Part shown: piece after piece, positions 11,187 to 26,423 of the stretch
How positions within the stretch are numbered: position 1 is the stretch's first letter
How the letters are laid out: each line of letters starts with the position of its first letter
Virus record (IMG/VR): IMGVR_UViG_3300047678_000450
Location: 1 to 27,862 of that record
Source: a virus
Strand: one strand, 5' to 3'
DNA: 27,862 nucleotides
The notes under the pieces: model-generated
Told to the model about the DNA's origin: nothing
The model's input: the letters and a program-made list of their open reading frames with translations, nothing else
The model's database searches: none
Position numbers and translations under genes: made by a program

Positions 11187-12790
11187 GGCGCCGCCTGTGC
11201 GGTGAGTCTGGCGTTAACCAAGACCCACGTGTTGGCAAATGTATCGGATCCATCGGACCGCATCCTCTGGACCCGGACCTGGATCTGCTCGCCGGCCGCG
11301 CAACTCGTGTCCGGGACTGTGACGGTGGTCACGATGATCTTGTGGTCGCCCGAAATTGTGATCGTCGCGTTCGTCGCGGAGTTCGCTCCGTCCGTGTTCG
11401 CGTTGTCGCTTCCGCTCAGGCACACGGACTGAGCTTCTACATACACGTTTCCACTCGCGTTCGATGTCTCGCCGTAGCCTGCCCGCGGATGGGTTCTCGT
11501 GACCAATTGGAGCTGCAACGTTCCGGCAACGTATCCAACCGGCAGGATCGCGGAGAGTATCACCTTTGGCGTGCCTGTGCTTTTCGAAAACGTCGTGCCG
11601 TATTGCTTCCCGAGGACGCCGCTGTTCGAGATATCGACGACGGACACGCCGTCGGAATCGAAGTAATCGCCCATCGGGATCAGCAGGCCTCCCGTGGTGC
11701 GATATGTGCGAAATCCCTCGCTCCAATACACAGTCCCGCCGCCACCTCCGGACGGCGTGTACCACTCCATCTCCAGCAGCGTCGTGTTCGTGTCGTTTCC
11801 ACCACCGAACGCGACCGTCTGGCCGGTGGTGCGTGTCTTCACGCGCTTCACCTGGCCGGTCGCGCTGGCGGCCGCCGACGGTTCGATCTCGACGACGCTG
11901 GTCGTATGATTGTCGGGCGCCTGGCGCGAGTAGTATTTGAGGCTCGTTTTGGCGACAAGATCGATCACGCCGGACTGCGTCGCCTCGCCCGTCGAGGCGA
12001 GGGTCTTACACGTGAGCGAATCCTTCGACGCGCCCGACACGCTGCAGCCGGACGCCGTGACGGCCGCCGCCGAAGCACCACCGACGGTGACTCGATCTGC
12101 GACCTGGTCTGCCACGGTTCCACTCCCTGCTGGACCCGTCGCTCCGGTCGGCCCTGCGGGACCCGTCGCGCCTGTCGCGCCGTTCGCCCCGGCTGGTCCC
12201 GTCGGGCCCGCCGGACCAGTGGGTCCTGCGGGGCCGGTTGCGCCAGTTGGTCCCTGTGGGCCGGTCGGACCCGCTGGTCCCGTAGCGCCAGATCCGCCGC
12301 TTCCGCACTCGCCAGCAGTGCCATCGACGCGTACGCAGTCGGTGAGAGTGCCGGTGACCGGAGCGACAAGCCCGGCGCCGTCTGTCTTGAGCGCTCGGTT
12401 TGGCGTGTAGGGCGTGGCGGGATCCGGCTGCGCGCCGCCCATTGTCACGCGAACGTTGGCGACGGTCTGTTTCGCGCCGGAGTCCGGAACGGCCCACCAC
12501 TCACCCGGGGACGCTCCGAGGCCCGCCGACGTGCACTGGACACGATAGAACGTGCCGTTCGGCGTCCCGCCGACCGTGGGTTCTAGAGTGACGTCCAACA
12601 CTCCGCTGCGGATCGTGAGCACCTTGGAACCGCCCGCCACTGGACGTCCGTTAGCGGTCGCGAAACTCGCCCAGGAAATCGTGCAGGAGCCGTTCAGCCG
12701 GTTCCCCAAGCCGTCGTAGAGGGTGTCGGCCACCCGGGTGGCGGCGATTGTGCTGGCGGCCAGTGTGGCGCAAAGTATCAGGAGTCTCAT
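11183..12790 (-). CDS. Collagen-like tail fibre protein with signal peptide
   Basis: 535 residues. [20 protein letters not shown] looks like a signal peptide. Residues 22-118 form a beta-rich domain ([20 protein letters not shown] ... [12 protein letters not shown] ... EWWAVPDSG) of a kind I know from N-terminal parts of phage fibre proteins. Residues 168-222 are about 18 Gly-X-Y triplets ([16 protein letters not shown]), expected to make a collagen-like triple helix, followed by a beta-rich C-terminal part that could form the trimeric receptor-binding tip. It probably contacts the host surface. It overlaps both neighbours by four bases. The signal peptide is unusual for a tail component, which is normally assembled in the cytoplasm. 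Confidence 0.75.
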
Positions 12791-15618
12791 AGGAACCTCG
12801 CGTCGGAAGGATTGGCTGGGAGCGGGACCGGCCAGCCCATCAGGCAGATATGGTCGAACGCCCAGAAGTTGATGACGGGCGTCTGCTCGTTCGCGGCTCG
12901 CAGATACTCAGCAGGCCACGGACAGCCGCCGTTGAACCAGGGCACGAGATAGCGGACGTCGGCTCGCGGCCACGAGCCGAAATCGAGCGGAAATCGCATC
13001 GCCCAGCGCGCCTTGTCGCCGTCGCGGCTACCCGCGCCGAAGTCGAGGCCTTCGATCTTGATGCGATCGACGGGCGCCAGCGACGGATCCATCAGCCGCG
13101 GATCCGTGTGGATGTAGTGATTGAGCGCGCCGCCGAGATCGTAGCGTCCGTACTGCGACGGGTAGTTCACGTCGAGCGGCAACAGGACCTCGATCACCGC
13201 GCCCGGATACGTCGCCTTGACGTGCGTCCGGATCGCGCGGATGTGCGCGTCCAGGCGATCGCGAAGGAAGTCCGCGTCCTCGTAGCTGTTCACGCTCGGA
13301 TCCGAATCCGGATACGCGAATCGAACGAGCGGGCGTCCGAGCGCGGTGACGGCCGCCGCCGCGGTCTCGGCGTCGTAGAACGCCATCCCCTTCGTCATGT
13401 CCCCGCCCGGATCCGCCGTCGGTGGACTCGCGTTGTTGAAGTACCACCAGACGAATTCGCCACACTGTAATTCGACCGGCAGGCCCGCGGCGTCCATCAG
13501 GTCCGCGGTATCCATGAACACGCGTTTCTGATAATCAAGAACGTCACTGACGAATGAACAGTGCGTCGTCACGTTCGAACCGAAACCAGTGGCCGTCTCG
13601 ACGGGATTCCCGTTCCAGTAGCGCGCGGCCCAGTCCGCCGGCGGATTCAGCAATTCCATCGAATACGCGAGTGTGATCGCGCGAGACCTGGTCGCGCATT
13701 CCGCGAGCAGATCCGCGAGCCACTCGCGCGCGCCGCGGTTAATCGTCGGGGATTGGGACGGATCGACCATCCAGATTCCGTAGGTCCCGCCTGTTAGAGC
13801 GCCGCCAACAGTCAGAGCGGTGGTGACGGGCCCGGGTTCTTCCTTCGAGGCGGAGACCGAAAAGCTGTACGCGCTGCCGACCGCGCGTAGCGTGAGCGTG
13901 AGAACCGCGCCTGAACTGCTCGCCCAAACACCTACGCTGGTTTGGTTGATGTAGAACGCGAAGTGCTGCGCGATGCTCGCCGCGTCGTCGGCGGGAAACA
14001 CGCTCTTGCCGAACAGTTGGCCGCCGATATCGACAAACGCCGCGTTACCACTGGCCCAGGTCGTTTGCGAGAAGTCGATGGTTGCCGTAGGGAACGTCGC
14101 GCCGGCACGAACGCGTTGGTTCCACCAGAACACGCTGACGTATACGTTCATCGGTCCCTGCAGGCCCAGCTCGTCGAGCATCCACAGAATTCGCGAGGGC
14201 GGCAGCTTGTAGCTGTGGTCCGTGCCGTAATCGCACGCCGGCGCGGCCGTCGTCGTTACAGCGGGAGCCGACGGTGGATCCGCGAGCACAGCGGCCTCGA
14301 GGAAATCGAAGTAGGCGTAGTCGCCCGTCGACGGCGAAGCATGCGTCCGGAGCGTAAGTGTGACCGCGTGGGCGCCTGCTGCGACTCCGGACCGCACCTG
14401 GCGGCGCGTGACGACGGGGACCGCCGAGGCGATATAGCAGTCGAGCGACGTTTCGGTATCGCCGTCGAGCACTACGCCCCATTTCCCGCGATCGCTATAG
14501 AGCGACGTTCCGAGCCAGAGGTCGTGCGTGGACTGGCAGTGATACTGGATCGTGACGGAGTCGCCCACGGTCGATGCACGCCTGGCGAAGCCTAGGTGGA
14601 ACCAACCCGTCCCGCCGGCCTGGGCGGAGGCCTCTTCGGCCCAACTCGCACCGCTGTAGCTCGCCCACGCATCGCGCGAGCCGATCCGCACGGATCCAGG
14701 ACCAGCGACCTTGAGATCCGCGTTCGAGCCGGTGACTGTCCAGTTCGAGAACTCCGCAACGAATTCGGTGTCCACGTAAGCCGCGGAATCTGCCAGCGCG
14801 GGCGCGAGGGTGAGCCACATCTGCCGAATCTGCGGGGAGCCCCAGCCCTTGGCCGTCCAAATCGCCGAGAAGTCGAGCGAGTAGTGCCAGGTCGCGGCGC
14901 TCGATCCGTCCGTGAGTTGCGCCGTCGTCGGCGAGAGCGTGAGGGTAGACGTCTTCGATTGCGTGTACAGCCGGATCATGTTTCCGTCCGCGCCAGGTTT
15001 CGCGGCGAGGATCGTGAGCACTGCGCCGGAGCGCGTGCATTCGATGGCCTGCTCACCGATGGCCCAACTCACGCCGTTGATCTGGGCTTCGAGCGCGCTG
15101 GCCACGTCCACGGCGGACTCTCCGCCATCGGCGATCTTGTCGAACGCGTAGTTGCCGTACCAGATCGTGACGCGATCGTAGATCACCGCGCCGCCGGGAT
15201 CCGCCGCAACGGTGATCGTCGTGGAAGCCTTGTCGTATGTGCCCGAGACGGGCGAGCCGCCCGCATAGTCGGACAGCTTCAGCGTGCGCGTCGTTCCGTC
15301 GGCCTGGATCACGCTGAGCACGTCCCACGCGATCGAGGCATACTTCGCCGAGTCGAGCTGCTGGAGGCCGTCGTAAAGCGCGTCGAATGCGAGCGTGACG
15401 CCACTGAAATCGAAGTCAGGAAGGTATTTGAGACGAGGATGCTCGTAAAAGTTGTCGGCGTCGTAGAGCACCACGACGGCGAAGTCAGCCGCGTCGCGAA
15501 ACACGCCTGAACACTTCCATGAGTCGGCGGCGACCGCGTGCAGGGCGGCCGCCGCGCCGCGATCATCGAAGCCACGTAGCGCGATCGTGTATCGCGGATC
15601 GAGCTTCGAGATGGGCAT
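12787..15618 (-). CDS. Large tail protein with TIM-barrel-like C-terminal part
   Basis: 943 residues, starting [20 protein letters not shown]. Residues 1-200 mix alpha and beta; residues 200-450 are beta-rich with jelly-roll character ([20 protein letters not shown]); residues 450-640 are again beta-rich. From about 640 ([20 protein letters not shown]) to the end the pattern of alternating helices and strands ([41 protein letters not shown]) looks like a glycoside-hydrolase-type TIM barrel, with E and D residues at strand ends. Phage proteins with this layout have been annotated as non-contractile tail sheath or tail decoration proteins; I cannot confirm that assignment. A polysaccharide-binding or depolymerising role is the alternative. 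It starts on the stop of the tail tip gene. Confidence 0.65.
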
Positions 15619-20956: not shown

Positions 20957-23900
20957 TTAGGCCACTCCGAAGACCGACTTCTGAATGCCGACGCGAAGGC
21001 CGTCATTGCCTTCGCGCAGCGCTTTCGTCACAGCGCTCGCGACCTCGGCCGATCGATCCAGGAACGACTTTGTATCGAGCGCATTGACGACGACGGTAAC
21101 CGTGCTGCCTCCCGCCTTGCGGAGGTTGCCATTCATGTCGTAGTCTAGTGCGTTGCCGTCTCGATCCTCGACGCGATCAATAGCCGTCGGAGCGGTGTAC
21201 TTTCGCTTCTGCAGCTCCTCGCGGATCTCGTTCTCGCGCTGCTGGCGCGGATCCGGCAGCAGGCCTTTGAAGAGGCCCGCCACCAGCGCGGCCGCCTGGA
21301 TGAAAGGCTGCTGCGGGCCCGGGATCGCGGACGCGATCGACAGCCCGCCCTGGATCGCGGAAAGCGTCCCCGCCGCGCCGCCTTGCTTGATTCCTGAGTA
21401 GATGCCGTAGGCTCCAGCGCCGACGAGCGCAGCGGATCCGACGACGTTACCGACGCGACCGGCCGTGGAGGTGAGGCCGAGTGACGATGCCGTCGTCGTC
21501 CTGCCGTCGGGGCCCTGGATCGAGTAGTCGCCTCCGGAGAGGCCACGGAACAAGCCACCGCTGAGCGTGGATCCGAGGCCGCCGAAGAACGAGCCGAGCG
21601 TCTTGTTGGATCCGGCGCTGCTTCCGCCACCACCAAGGATACGGCCCAGGAAGCCGCCGATGCCGCCGCCGTTTCCGCTCGCGAATGGCGGCGTTGTGCC
21701 GCCGCTGCCGAGGTTACCGAGTAGATCGCCCGCGGTGGTGCCAGCTCCGGAAAGCTGGCCCAAGAGCCCGCCGCCAGTCATCGCGGTGGTGAGGTTCTCG
21801 ACGGCCTTCGTGTTCTTGTCGCGTGAGCGGATTTCAGGAGTCGCCGCGTTCTGCGGATCGAACAAGGTGCCCTTCAGCAGCCCGCCAAGTCCCGACGCCT
21901 CGCCGAGCTTACCCAGCGCGCCGCCAGCGCGCTGGAAGATACCTTGGGAAATGTTCTGGAAGATGGCGCGTTCCTGCTGCTTGACCACGCCGCCCAGCAT
22001 CTCGCGCAAGCCTCCGCCGCCCTTCGCGGTAAGCGCGTCGAACACGCGGCCAGCGTCCTCGCGATACTGCTCGCTCCGCTGCTTCTGGAGTTCGAGCAGC
22101 TTGATCGCGCCGTCGAGTTCGGCGTCGCGCGTTTCCTTGCGCAGTGTTTGCTCGGCCTTCACCAATGCGACACGCCGATCCTCGGCATCCTCGATCCGCG
22201 CCGCCTGCGCGACCTCAAAGTCGAACAATTCCTGAACGAGTTGCTTGCGGATTCCGATTGCTGCGCGCGCGGCCTCGATCTCGCGTCCGGGTCCAAGCTG
22301 CAACTCGGCGAGCTTGGCCGTGCGGCTCGATTGATCGACGATGTCGGCGCGCTTGATTGCAGATTCGATGTCGCGAATTTTGTCGTCGGCCTGAAACTGG
22401 CGCTTCTCGTCGCGGAGCCCGGATCCATCGCCGAGCAGGTTGACCGGCTTTCGTCCGCGAAACGCAACCTTCTCGAACGCGTCGAGGATCTGCTGCTGTT
22501 GATCCGAGATCTTGCGCGCCTCGGCGGCGAGCTCCTCGCCGAATGCGCGGTTGAAGTCCGCGAGCAGCGAGTCGCGCTTCGCGCCGGCCGGGAGTTCGCG
22601 CTTGATCTCGTCGACCTTGTTGCGCCGGCGTTGTTCGATTTGTCCAATGGCGCCAAACGGCTTTAGTTCAGCTTCGGACTGCAGGCTCGCGAGTTCGCGC
22701 TCGAGTTTCTTGATCTCCGCGACCTGGTGCTCGTAGTCCTTCGCTGTTTTCTTGATGGAGTCGAGGCGCGACTGAATCGAGGCCGCCTCTTTGTCGAGCG
22801 TCGAGATTTGGCCTTCCAGCAGGCCCGCGGAGCCTGAACTTAGAGTGCCCCCGAGCCCGCTCAGCAGCTCACGCCGAACCTTGTCGCGCTCCGCGTCCAC
22901 ATCCCGCAGCCGGTCCTTCAGCCCGTCTTCCGTATTTGAGCGCCGCGATCGATAGGCTTCGGCACGCGCCTTCCCGGCGGCGAAGTCCTGGCCGATGAGG
23001 AACTGGGACTTACTTCGCGCGTCCAGTAGCGGGTCAAGGCGAGAGTCCCCAACACCTACAGCAGCCGGATCAAGCAATCGACTCGCTTCGCTGGCTCGGG
23101 CCAGAGCGATCGAATCAGGCACCGCCTGTTCCTGATTCGACTTAGATGTCAGGGTGTCCGTGACGACGCGAATGATCGGGATATAGATCGGAGCGATCTT
23201 CGCCGCGAGTTGCTTTTTGAACTCGTCCCAAGCGATCCCGGCCTTGTCGATCTCGTCGTTAGCTTTGGCGAGCACCTTCACGACGTTGTCGTCGAAGCCG
23301 ACGCCCAGCGCGCGCACCGCACGATTCAACTCGCCATAGTCCGCGATCAACGGCGCGAGTTGCTTCGCTGCGTTTCGGCCGAGCAGCTCCTTCGCGAGAG
23401 CGACACGTTTGGTCGAGTCCTCGACTTGCGCGAGCTTTCCTAAAACTTCCAGCAGCACGGCGCCATACTCCCGCTCACCACCAGACGCCGTCGAGCTGTC
23501 GATGCCGAGCCCCTGCAGCGTCTTTCGAAGCTTGTCGCCTTTGGCTCCGCTATCCTCTAGCGCCGACCCGAGGAGGACTGCCGACGACTCCAGGACCTCG
23601 ATGCCGACGCCAGCGATCCGCCCCATCGCCTGCAGGCGCTCGACCTGACCGACAGTCAAACCCGTGCGAACCGCGAGATTCGCAGTGACCTCGGCGAGGG
23701 CGCTTTGCGAATCGACCAAGGCGTAGCCGGCCTGCGCGGCAGAGACCAGGACGGTCGCCACAGTACCGATCGCCGCTCCGGCCACGAGCATCGTTGAGTT
23801 GACGCCGAGCGTTGAGGCTGCGATGTCCAGAAAGCCCAGCGAGGCGTGACCGCTGGCCTCGGTCACTGCATGGACTTCCGTGCCGACGGCTTGTGCGGGC

Positions 23901-24304
23901 TGCTTCAGTGCCGCGAATCGAGCACGCAGTTCATCAAGCGTGCTGTTCAATCCGGCATGGGACGCGGCTGACGCGGCCGCTTCTGCAGCGGCAGCTTTGA
24001 CATATCGCGCTTCCTCGGCAGCGGCAGCCGCGGCCTTTTTGAGCGCGCGCTCGTGGTCGGCGGCCGCGTGCGCCGCCTTCGCCGCTTCGCTCGCGACACC
24101 CTTGAGTTCGGACTTGGCAGTCGCCAGTTCCTTGCTCATCTTGGCGACGCTTTGCGTGACGGCTACGGTTGCCGCATCCATGCCCTTCAGCGCGGTGTCG
24201 GCCTGACGCACTTCGGACGTCGTCCCCGTGACGGCGGCCTTGATCGCCGCCAGGAGTTGCTGCCCTTCGGATAGGATCCGAAACTTGATGCCGACTTCTT
24301 GCAT
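20957..24304 (-). CDS. Tail tape measure protein
   Basis: About 1,115 residues from ATG 24304 (MQEVGIKFRILSEGQQLLAA), eight bases after the preceding stop; the frame extends 18 codons upstream but into the neighbouring gene. Long helical, Ala/Lys/Glu-rich regions dominate (AKMSKELATAKSELKGVASE, residues 90-130), with a hydrophobic segment (STMLVAGAAIGTVATVLVSA) near residue 180 typical of tape measures. The C-terminal third has Gly-rich stretches (GGIGGFLGRILGGGGSS) that could become membrane-active. Tape measures set tail length and help DNA cross the membrane; at about 0.15 nm per residue the tail would be near 165 nm. Position after the chaperone gene and before the distal tail genes is standard for siphoviruses. 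Confidence 0.9.
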   Translation of the reverse strand: MQEVGIKFRILSEGQQLLAAIKAAVTGTTSEVRQADTALKGMDAATVAVTQSVAKMSKELATAKSELKGVASEAAKAAHAAADHERALKKAAAAAAEEARYVKAAAAEAAASAASHAGLNSTLDELRARFAALKQPAQAVGTEVHAVTEASGHASLGFLDIAASTLGVNSTMLVAGAAIGTVATVLVSAAQAGYALVDSQSALAEVTANLAVRTGLTVGQVERLQAMGRIAGVGIEVLESSAVLLGSALEDSGAKGDKLRKTLQGLGIDSSTASGGEREYGAVLLEVLGKLAQVEDSTKRVALAKELLGRNAAKQLAPLIADYGELNRAVRALGVGFDDNVVKVLAKANDEIDKAGIAWDEFKKQLAAKIAPIYIPIIRVVTDTLTSKSNQEQAVPDSIALARASEASRLLDPAAVGVGDSRLDPLLDARSKSQFLIGQDFAAGKARAEAYRSRRSNTEDGLKDRLRDVDAERDKVRRELLSGLGGTLSSGSAGLLEGQISTLDKEAASIQSRLDSIKKTAKDYEHQVAEIKKLERELASLQSEAELKPFGAIGQIEQRRRNKVDEIKRELPAGAKRDSLLADFNRAFGEELAAEARKISDQQQQILDAFEKVAFRGRKPVNLLGDGSGLRDEKRQFQADDKIRDIESAIKRADIVDQSSRTAKLAELQLGPGREIEAARAAIGIRKQLVQELFDFEVAQAARIEDAEDRRVALVKAEQTLRKETRDAELDGAIKLLELQKQRSEQYREDAGRVFDALTAKGGGGLREMLGGVVKQQERAIFQNISQGIFQRAGGALGKLGEASGLGGLLKGTLFDPQNAATPEIRSRDKNTKAVENLTTAMTGGGLLGQLSGAGTTAGDLLGNLGSGGTTPPFASGNGGGIGGFLGRILGGGGSSAGSNKTLGSFFGGLGSTLSGGLFRGLSGGDYSIQGPDGRTTTASSLGLTSTAGRVGNVVGSAALVGAGAYGIYSGIKQGGAAGTLSAIQGGLSIASAIPGPQQPFIQAAALVAGLFKGLLPDPRQQRENEIREELQKRKYTAPTAIDRVEDRDGNALDYDMNGNLRKAGGSTVTVVVNALDTKSFLDRSAEVASAVTKALREGNDGLRVGIQKSVFGVA

Positions 24305-24311
24305 GAGTGGT

Positions 24312-25180
24312 CTATCGCGTCGCGTCGTCGCGCGCGGCGTCGAGCCGCGCTTGCTCAATCTGGATCAACTTGTGGGCGTCCAGCGCCCGACCTGGCCAGC
24401 TCGCCAGGTCGGCACCGTACGCCGCCGCGCCGGCGTCGCGCAACCACGCCGCCGCGCCGTGCTCTTCGAGCCAGGCCAGCGACTCCGACGTGATCGCGGA
24501 GACCGGGCACTCCGCGGACTCGACGCCATCGACGGTGTAAGACTCGCCTTTGGTCGTCCGGTAGTCCGGCGTCCAGCGCCAGGGTTTATTGCCCGTCAGT
24601 CCTTGAGGGCCCACCCGCTTGCAGTCGCGGCTGGCGTACCAGCCGGCGCGCTTGCAGGCTGCGCACTTGTATCGTTCGTTTCGCCAGCCACGGCTGCGCT
24701 CGAAGTGGAAGGCGAGTCTAAATTTGCTTCCTCGCCCGCCGACAGGGCGGATCCGGCGAGGATCGCTTGCGTGATCTCGCGCACCAGCGCCGCGGGTCCG
24801 TCCTCGACGAGCGTCTTGGCGTCCGGACTGGCGTTGCCGTTGATGGTGAGACCTTCAACGGAGACGAATCCCGCCTCGAAGTAGAGCGGATTGATGTCCA
24901 GATCCCGGATCAGATCGACAGCTTCGTTGAGCTCGTCGAACTCGCGCCGCTCGTCGCGGGTGAGTTCGACCAGCTTGATCTGATCGGCGGGTTTGTCCAG
25001 ACGCTCCGCAAGGCGCGCGTGGAAGTCCTCACGCTGGTAGTCGACTTCCGCGAGCTTCGCGAACGATGCTGCCGTTGCGCGGCGCAAACGCCGCCTCGCA
25101 CCTTCGCTCAACTCGCGCACTGTAAACCGGACTCCCGGCAGCGCCGCGGAATCCTTGGTGATAGTGGAGACGTAGTTCAT
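24312..25180 (-). CDS. Tail assembly chaperone, -1 frameshift fusion product (gpGT-like)
   Basis: Predicted product of a -1 shift at 24719-24725: residues 1-154 come from the chaperone gene and 135 more from the -1 frame, ending at TAG 24312-24314, 289 residues in total. The added part has 35 residues before the first internal start (RLAFHFERSRGWRNERYKCA, ACKRAGWYASRDCKR), with C-x2-C and a further Cys resembling a zinc site. It continues KPWRWTPDYRTTKGESYTVD and ECPVSAITSESLAWLEEHGA, which read as protein with strong aromatic and Cys content, unlike the Ala/Pro/Ser/Thr-rich end of the unshifted product. In lambda the fused form carries the tape measure to the major tail protein. An alternative is separate translation from GTG 24614. 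Confidence 0.7.
24596..25180 (-). CDS. Tail assembly chaperone, unshifted product (gpG-like)
   Basis: 194 residues from ATG 25180, just after the major tail protein stop. The sequence begins MNYVSTITKDSAALPGVRFT and has a helical, charged core: VRELSEGARRRLRRATAASF, DQIKLVELTRDERREFDELN, INPLYFEAGF. The last 40 residues (after ANL) are low in complexity. The protein sits in the invariant slot between the major tail protein and the tape measure and is expected to coat the tape measure before tube polymerisation. Translation in the 0 frame terminates at 24596; a slippery heptamer at codons 152-154 diverts a fraction of ribosomes. Confidence 0.75.
   Translation of the reverse strand: MNYVSTITKDSAALPGVRFTVRELSEGARRRLRRATAASFAKLAEVDYQREDFHARLAERLDKPADQIKLVELTRDERREFDELNEAVDLIRDLDINPLYFEAGFVSVEGLTINGNASPDAKTLVEDGPAALVREITQAILAGSALSAGEEANLDSPSTSSAAVAGETNDTSAQPASAPAGTPAATASGWALKD
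24719..24725 (-). promoter_or_regulatory. Programmed -1 frameshift site A-AAT-TTA
   Basis: The minus strand reads A AAT TTA in the chaperone frame (end of codon 152, then codons 153 and 154), a canonical X-XXY-YYZ heptamer, the same one used by Rous sarcoma virus gag-pol. The TTA codon is rare in this GC-rich gene. The -1 frame is open from here to 24312. A weak stem (CAGC-CGTG-GCTG) lies about 25 bases downstream; a stronger stimulator is not obvious by eye. Confidence 0.7.
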
Positions 25181-25184
25181 GGCG

Positions 25185-26423
25185 TTAGAGGATCGTCAGC
25201 TTGATTTCGTCGAGAGCGCCGGGCGTGGACCCTGTGGCGCGGCAGTTGGCGTACTTGCGAACGAAGCGCCGCGCGCTGTCGTCGAGTTCCGTCGTCGCGA
25301 GCTGCACGCCCTTCGCATGGAAGACCCAGGTGTTGTACTGCTGGGTGCCAATCTGCAGGATGGTGTCGATGGGCGTCTTCGCCTTGAAAGCCGCATAGAG
25401 CGCCTGCATGGCCGCTGTATCCTTGTCGTTCAGGTCGAGACTCACCGAAACGTTGCGCTCATCGGCCTCGAGTTCGTCCGGCGTGAAGCGGCCGAAGTTT
25501 GTCTTGACGACTTCACCGGCGGTCCCGAACGTCAAGGTCGCGGCCCGGATGCCACTGAACGAGGCGCCGTTGATGACAGCTCGGCCCGTGAACCCCGCGA
25601 CGATGCCAGAGTCCGCCGGCAGCGAGCCGGACGGTTCCGCCGGGAACGCGGTCAAGCCAGCCTGCAACTCTGCTGAATCGCTCGCGAACGTGTCGCTATC
25701 GAGTTCGTAGATGCCCTCGCCGTTGAACTGCGCCTCGGCGATGTCCTGCCCGAGGTTGATCGTCGCGGACGTCACCACGTTGCCGTAGCTCAGCCGTTGC
25801 TGCAGTGTCGAGGGCGTGCGGAAGAGCGCAGCCACGAAGGTCAACAGATCGTCGGTCAGCGTGTATTTCGTTCCCACGAAGGACGCCGTTCCGCCGCTCG
25901 TGTACCCGGCGTTGCCCGTGGATCCCGCGAGTGAATACGTATCGGCGCTGAGGGACGTGATGACCCAAACGCCGTTGGCTGCGGTGTTGCCGCCGACGGC
26001 AGCGATCCGGACGACGTCGCCCGTCGCCTTGCCGTGTCCGACTTGCGTGATGACGATCGGCGAGGCGTTCGTCGCACCGGTAACGGAACCAGATCCGGTT
26101 ACCGCGGTGCCAGCGTTGCCGAACAGCGATCGCCAGAGTGACTTCGATGGCGGCGCGACGGCCGAGGCCGCGCCGATCATTTCGATGGCGGCCTGCCAGC
26201 CAATATACGAACGCCCGGCGACGCCACGGCGCGCGGTGCGCGTGCCCGTCTTTGAGCGGGATGTCAGGAGCCCGGAGTTCGGCGTGGTCTTGTACGAAAC
26301 GTGCGGACAGTAGTTCGCGATCGTCAGACTTGCGGCGCCCGATGAGTTTGGGACGGTCAGGTGCGTATCGACCGGCTGGTCGAGCAGAAGCAACTTCTCG
26401 TTGCGGGAAAGGGAATTCGCCAT
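25185..26423 (-). CDS. Major tail protein with FCCH-like insertion
   Basis: 412 residues from ATG 26423 with AGGAG eight bases upstream. The start MANSLSRNEKLLLLDQPVDT, the body (SATINLGQDIAEAQFNGEGI, GIRAATLTFGTAGEVVKTNF) and the end (ARRFVRKYANCRATGSTPGA then LDEIKLTIL) are those of a tail tube protein. Residues 114-183 (TGATNASPIVITQVGHGKAT ... GNTAANGVWVITSLSADTYS then LAGSTGNAGYTSGGT) form an extra domain with the pattern of the E1 FCCH-type beta domain often found in phage structural proteins. It would project from the tube surface. The tube polymerises around the tape measure. Confidence 0.8.
   Translation of the reverse strand: MANSLSRNEKLLLLDQPVDTHLTVPNSSGAASLTIANYCPHVSYKTTPNSGLLTSRSKTGTRTARRGVAGRSYIGWQAAIEMIGAASAVAPPSKSLWRSLFGNAGTAVTGSGSVTGATNASPIVITQVGHGKATGDVVRIAAVGGNTAANGVWVITSLSADTYSLAGSTGNAGYTSGGTASFVGTKYTLTDDLLTFVAALFRTPSTLQQRLSYGNVVTSATINLGQDIAEAQFNGEGIYELDSDTFASDSAELQAGLTAFPAEPSGSLPADSGIVAGFTGRAVINGASFSGIRAATLTFGTAGEVVKTNFGRFTPDELEADERNVSVSLDLNDKDTAAMQALYAAFKAKTPIDTILQIGTQQYNTWVFHAKGVQLATTELDDSARRFVRKYANCRATGSTPGALDEIKLTIL

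Follow-up and report, generated by a model that had tools for sequence, protein, structure and literature searches.

A probable −1 frameshift joining a tail assembly chaperone to a conserved cysteine-rich domain in a siphovirus-type tail module

We analyzed a 27,862-nucleotide stretch of viral DNA (IMG/VR record IMGVR_UViG_3300047678_000450, positions 1 to 27,862; hereafter ‘the window’). Its minus strand carries a siphovirus-type tail module, in which two overlapping reading frames, a putative tail assembly chaperone gene and an ORF in the −1 frame relative to it, sit between the genes for the major tail protein and the tape measure protein (Table 1). The relatives described below keep this order. 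The module also includes a non-contractile tail sheath protein (12787-15618; PF23845, TIM barrel), which is found in the relatives' cluster too.

Table 1. Features of the chaperone locus in the window
Feature	Coordinates	Strand	Basis or remark
Major tail (tube) protein, upstream neighbour	25185..26423	−	phrog_584, E 2.2e-5
Frame-0 tail assembly chaperone (G-like, probable), 194 aa	24596..25180	−	ORF, ATG at 25180
Slippery heptamer A_AAT_TTA, codons 152-154	24719..24725	−	In frame; A_AAA_AAC in 40 relatives
−1 frame extension (T-like domain), 136 codons + stop	24312..24722	−	ORF, conservation, dN/dS
Overlap, frames 0 and −1 both open and apparently both constrained	24596..24718	−	dS values
Candidate stimulatory hairpin, 5+4 bp, −14.4 kcal/mol	24681..24715	−	3 nt past heptamer
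Putative C4 zinc site	24507..24665	−	Cys20, Cys23, Cys34, Cys72
Codon of Cys20	24665-24663	−	
Codon of Cys23	24656-24654	−	
Codon of Cys34	24623-24621	−	
Codon of Cys72	24509-24507	−	
Tape measure protein, downstream neighbour, 1115 aa from ATG 24304	20957..24304	−	phrog_8462, E 7e-15

The heptamer A_AAT_TTA lies at the junction of the two frames: codon 152 ends with its leading A, and AAT and TTA make up codons 153 and 154. This agrees with the first-pass annotation of this DNA, which had placed it exactly in the chaperone frame. From the re-read codon (24722), the −1 frame is open for 136 codons up to a TAG at 24314-24312; that this frame is open had been recognized before, with the length miscounted as 135 codons. 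The unshifted end had also been described as low in complexity and the TTA codon as conspicuous, and both descriptions hold. The frame-0 tail past the heptamer is the low-complexity sequence SPSTSSAAVAGETNDTSAQPASAPAGTPAATASGWALKD, and TTA is rare, accounting for 3 of 541 leucine codons in 16 genes. Within these 16 genes, A_AAT_TTA is the sole heptamer whose X and Y bases are both A/T. Given that codon shuffling expects 0.6 such heptamers, the motif alone is not beyond chance. Its conservation at the junction, judged from the loci compared below, does exceed chance.

To follow this conservation, we compared the junction among related loci. One of them, L003, is a 49,428-b contig of a MAG deposited as Nitrospirae and is syntenic with most of the window genes. 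Its −1 frame is 72% identical to that of the window, and it has the identical heptamer in identical codons. Matches elsewhere in the phylum to which this MAG belongs (L082-L086) were weak and contained internal stops, and we discounted them as probable noise. Scans of IMG/VR yielded 39 loci via the −1 domain (L002, L004-L039, L079 and L080) and one more, L040, via the frame-0 protein only. These 40 distant loci are ~25-33% identical, and in every one of them A_AAA_AAC occupies the same junction in frame; the frame-0 stop follows the heptamer directly in 33 and comes one codon further on in 7. The later stop is seen in a subgroup comprising L005, L011, L027/L028, L031 and L037. When the window and L003 are included, an in-frame heptamer is present at the junction in 42 of 42 loci, which represent 36 distinct junction sequences, several loci being near-duplicates. 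The alignment of homologues, which had been suggested as a check of the heptamer, therefore came out in its favour. The heptamer was absent from every query used in the scans. Moreover, L040 has both the heptamer and the −1 domain, and as it was retrieved without the −1 domain as bait, the link between the two holds independently of the bait. Across these loci, A_AAT_TTA is a local variant specific to the small clade of the window, and the wider family uses A_AAA_AAC.

Next, we calculated substitution rates between the window and L003. In the −1 frame beyond the frame-0 stop, dN was 0.24 and dS was 0.89 (dN/dS ~0.27), which indicates that purifying selection acts on the −1 frame. Within the overlap, the dS of the −1 frame was 0.30, against 1.06 for frame 0 upstream, in what is a modest test of 35 codons. 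This drop in dS suggests that both frames are constrained there. The ratio and the dip thus run counter to the idea of an unselected −1 frame, an outcome that had been named in advance as evidence against frameshifting.

The −1 frame has cysteines at residues 20, 23, 34 and 72. Among 32 aligned −1 domains, the AFHF motif, Lys19, Cys20, Cys23, Arg32, Cys34, Cys72-Pro73, Ser81 and Ala116 are invariant, and the four cysteines are also present in L040 and L080. The cysteine-rich extension noted in the first-pass annotation is a real conserved domain. It matches no Pfam or PHROG family, and it appears to represent an undescribed domain family. A search of PDB sequences found no relative of it, and Pfam gave no convincing match to a zinc family. 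In the structural model of the domain, the part with the cysteines had a pLDDT of ~40-55, with values <60 around the first three of them; the model was too uncertain to use, and no structural match was found. A C-x2-C motif with two more invariant cysteines in a cytoplasmic protein is a usual zinc pattern, and the C-x2-C, C, C arrangement here is probably a C4 zinc site. His6 is unlikely to be a metal ligand, because it is replaced by Gln in L080. We also considered the possibility that the frameshift is real and that, instead of holding zinc, the four cysteines form disulfides or mediate protein contacts. Zinc is invisible in a sequence, and the low pLDDT of the model and the lack of a convincing Pfam zinc family leave some room for this notion. 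Given the zinc-typical C-x2-C and two further invariant cysteines in a presumably cytoplasmic protein, we regard it as unlikely, if by no means far-fetched.

We also analyzed the RNA downstream of the heptamer. A stem of 11 bp, interrupted by a single bulged nucleotide, starts 5 nt past the heptamer in 34 distinct distant relatives, and 95.5% of the cells in its columns (13-23 with 49-60) are paired. The closing pair varies between G-C, A-U and C-G, and column 18 pairs as either C18-G54 or A18-U55, which are compensatory changes. In the subgroup of L005 and the five loci listed with it above, the base of the stem is A-U instead of G-C (G-U in L005). Because the stem columns also encode the conserved VAFH and WKCD, synonymous codon shuffling was used as the standard of comparison. 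Of 31 sequences, 30 had all 11 stem positions paired, where 500 synonymous shuffles predicted 11.3 and never gave more than 20; of 15 cluster representatives, 14 had them all paired, where 2000 shuffles predicted 5.3 and reached at most 12. The stem tested here had been defined from the same sequences. Pairing beyond that of the shuffles indicates that, in the distant relatives, the stem is selected as RNA. When compared with synonymous shuffles, the region was unremarkable in its overall folding energy (mean z −0.33), and the RNA claim is therefore limited to this specific stem. A pseudoknot between columns 43-47 and 74-78 is 84% paired, which is too little support to claim it. An upstream Shine-Dalgarno-like stimulator was rejected, as synonymous shuffles gave stronger anti-Shine-Dalgarno pairing than was observed.

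In the window and L003, the homologous 5′ arm of the stem, TCGCCTTCCAC, is kept and pairs with a nearer 3′ arm, different from that of the relatives, to form a hairpin of −14.4 kcal/mol in the window and −19.9 kcal/mol in L003. The window hairpin is not significant alone and competes with a longer alternative pairing, and the downstream RNA of the window was not unusually stable in three tests (z +0.92, −0.86 and −0.48). We regard this hairpin as a candidate weaker analogue of the family stem, which may act as a stimulator in the window.

A tblastn search of INPHARED phages for the chaperone, for the −1 domain and for the domain of L002 gave no match, and searches of Pfam, PHROGs and PDB sequences with both proteins, as single sequences and as alignments, gave nothing convincing. 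The AlphaFold model of the frame-0 protein (pLDDT 87) retrieved, in Foldseek and VIA-align, generic helical matches only, plus the HK97 chaperone (PDB 2ob9), which is likewise mostly helical and of similar size. Given that the 2ob9 match (Z 5.7 over 85 residues) was tied with unrelated helical proteins, a kinship of fold is not established. In BFVD, named chaperones appeared only at E > 0.1, and the best match was an unnamed phage protein (8e-9). The frame-0 protein is most probably a diverged tail assembly chaperone; as no homology to a named chaperone family was found, we class it as functioning like a G/GT chaperone.

Lambda needs its two G/GT products at a ratio of about 30:1; the G part attaches to the tape measure, and the T part to the tail tube protein (PMC5009743). 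The present locus resembles lambda G/GT in its location between the tail tube and tape measure genes, in a heptamer for −1 slippage close to the end of ORF 1, and in a T-like C-terminal domain that would be made only by the shift (PMC5009743). It differs in the four invariant cysteines of the extension, in the paired stem just downstream in the distant relatives, and in having no detectable sequence similarity to the known chaperone families of Pfam and PHROGs. The heptamers A_AAT_TTA and A_AAA_AAC also differ from G_GGA_AAG, the slip site of lambda. The −1 frameshift of Rous sarcoma virus gag-pol uses A_AAU_UUA. The g-t frameshift of the archaeal virus HCTV-2 has A_AAA_AAC as its slip site (PMC5009743). 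The hosts and proteins of these two viruses are unrelated to those considered here, and the likeness lies in the slip site only. A literature search for AAAUUUA in phage chaperones found nothing relevant. The mechanism is familiar; on account of the cysteine domain and, in the relatives, the conserved stem, we count the locus as a variant within the G/GT kind. It has been reported that A_AAA_AAC is inefficient in E. coli (PMC4066793, PMC5009743). Therefore, the efficiency of frameshifting may be low, which fits a low ratio of fusion to chaperone.

The −1 ORF could instead be a separate gene, translated from its own start or by coupling or reinitiation, with the heptamer there by coincidence. 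A GTG at 24614 does begin a 100-codon ORF in the window, and 26 of 41 loci have a −1 frame ATG, GTG or TTG before the conserved block, in most cases a GTG that lies 24 nt ahead of the heptamer. However, a start at 24614 would lose AFHF and three of the four invariant cysteines, and 15 of the 41 loci checked, including the window, have no such codon before the block, so that a fusion is the only simple route to the domain in these loci. A separate gene also leaves unexplained why a heptamer stands at the exact point in 42 of 42 loci, and we consider it very unlikely. The first-pass annotation had held that loss of the heptamer in homologues with retained −1 starts would speak against frameshifting; what we observed was retention of the heptamer throughout, with starts missing in those 15 loci.

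The fusion might also arise by transcriptional slippage on an A-run rather than by ribosomal frameshifting, and forty relatives do have six or seven consecutive A residues. These runs are short, and a stem placed 5 nt downstream is consistent with a ribosomal signal. Furthermore, the window and L003 have AAATTTA, in which the longest run is three; since no homopolymer there exceeds this length, slippage is unlikely in the window, and we give it as little credence as a separate gene. The window is a single metagenomic contig, and the change of frame could in principle be an assembly error or a sign of decay, the locus being in truth a pseudogene or encoding one continuous chaperone. However, the two frames stand in the same relation in 42 loci, from many metagenomes and one MAG, and both are under purifying selection; this leaves a negligible prospect, which we count as refuted by the independent loci. 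By contrast, the programmed −1 frameshift proposed in the first-pass annotation is supported by the conserved heptamer, by selection and by the missing −1 starts, and is the only reading that fits all of the comparative data. We put at roughly 93% the probability that a lambda G/GT-type −1 ribosomal frameshift makes a fusion of the chaperone with the T-like domain.

From these comparisons, we infer the occurrence and rate of the shift, the binding of zinc, the partners of the products and a stimulator in the window, and the frameshift would then proceed as follows. Most ribosomes would finish the chaperone gene in frame 0 (25180-24596). A minority, when AAT occupies the P site and TTA the A site, would slip by −1 at A_AAT_TTA, the two tRNAs re-pairing from AAT/TTA to AAA/TTT, and would translate onwards until the −1 stop at 24312; the result would be a G-T fusion, the less abundant product. 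If lambda is a guide, the tape measure would be coated by the N-terminal part that both products share, and the rarer fusion would recruit the tail tube protein via the −1 domain. The four invariant cysteines of this domain probably bind a zinc ion.

Finally, we surveyed the gene cluster around the chaperone in the distant relatives, using 23 fuller IMG/VR records among L090-L113 (e.g. L092:468-17037) and reading the order as far as the records reach. The order is fixed: terminase, portal, putative scaffold, P22-like coat, three small genes and tail protein, followed by chaperone, −1 domain, tape measure, two DUF2460 proteins, a Phage-tail_3 hub and a non-contractile tail sheath. The tape measure has ~190-240 aa (e.g. 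L040:3673-4344 and L092:8470-9138), and therefore a very short tail is implied. Most of the relatives' tape measures end in SFLDR/SFLDH...IA.AV..A, as does the C-terminus of the 1115-aa tape measure of the window; the subgroup of L005 mentioned above has a short tape measure without the SFLDR motif, where the gene is complete. In a few longer records, bacterial genes flank the cluster, namely a sodium:solute (SSF) symporter in two, and a TPP enzyme, an aminotransferase and a saccharopine dehydrogenase in others. An IS110-type transposase fragment (L090:5022-5513) lies between a bacterial flank and the terminase.

On this gene content, the cluster is a candidate gene-transfer-agent-like element or domesticated prophage, a reading that concerns the distant relatives only, comes from fragment records, and excludes the window and L003. 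It presumably recalls the RcGTA-type gene transfer agents, which it resembles in its compact invariant head-tail cluster, short tape measure, DUF2460 proteins and Phage-tail_3 hub. It differs from them in its P22-like coat; the window, moreover, is part of a larger, phage-like genome whose tape measure has 1115 aa. A literature search yielded no paper on acidobacterial gene transfer agents that possess a tape measure. We suggest, as a tentative possibility, that the phage of the window shares its frameshifted, probably zinc-binding chaperone with an undescribed family of domesticated GTA-like clusters (reaching from terminase to non-contractile tail sheath, tape measure ~220 aa) of uncultured bacteria, in which slip site and RNA stem would have been retained in a host-controlled particle.

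These results add a sequence-distinct, unannotated family to the frameshifted tail chaperones. With A_AAA_AAC, described as weak in E. coli, and, in most members, a selected RNA stem after it, the family is suited to asking how a low fusion ratio arises, and its invariant cysteines point to a metal-stabilised T domain. The cassette is also paired with a tape measure of ~220 aa in the distant relatives, whose clusters are possibly gene transfer agents.
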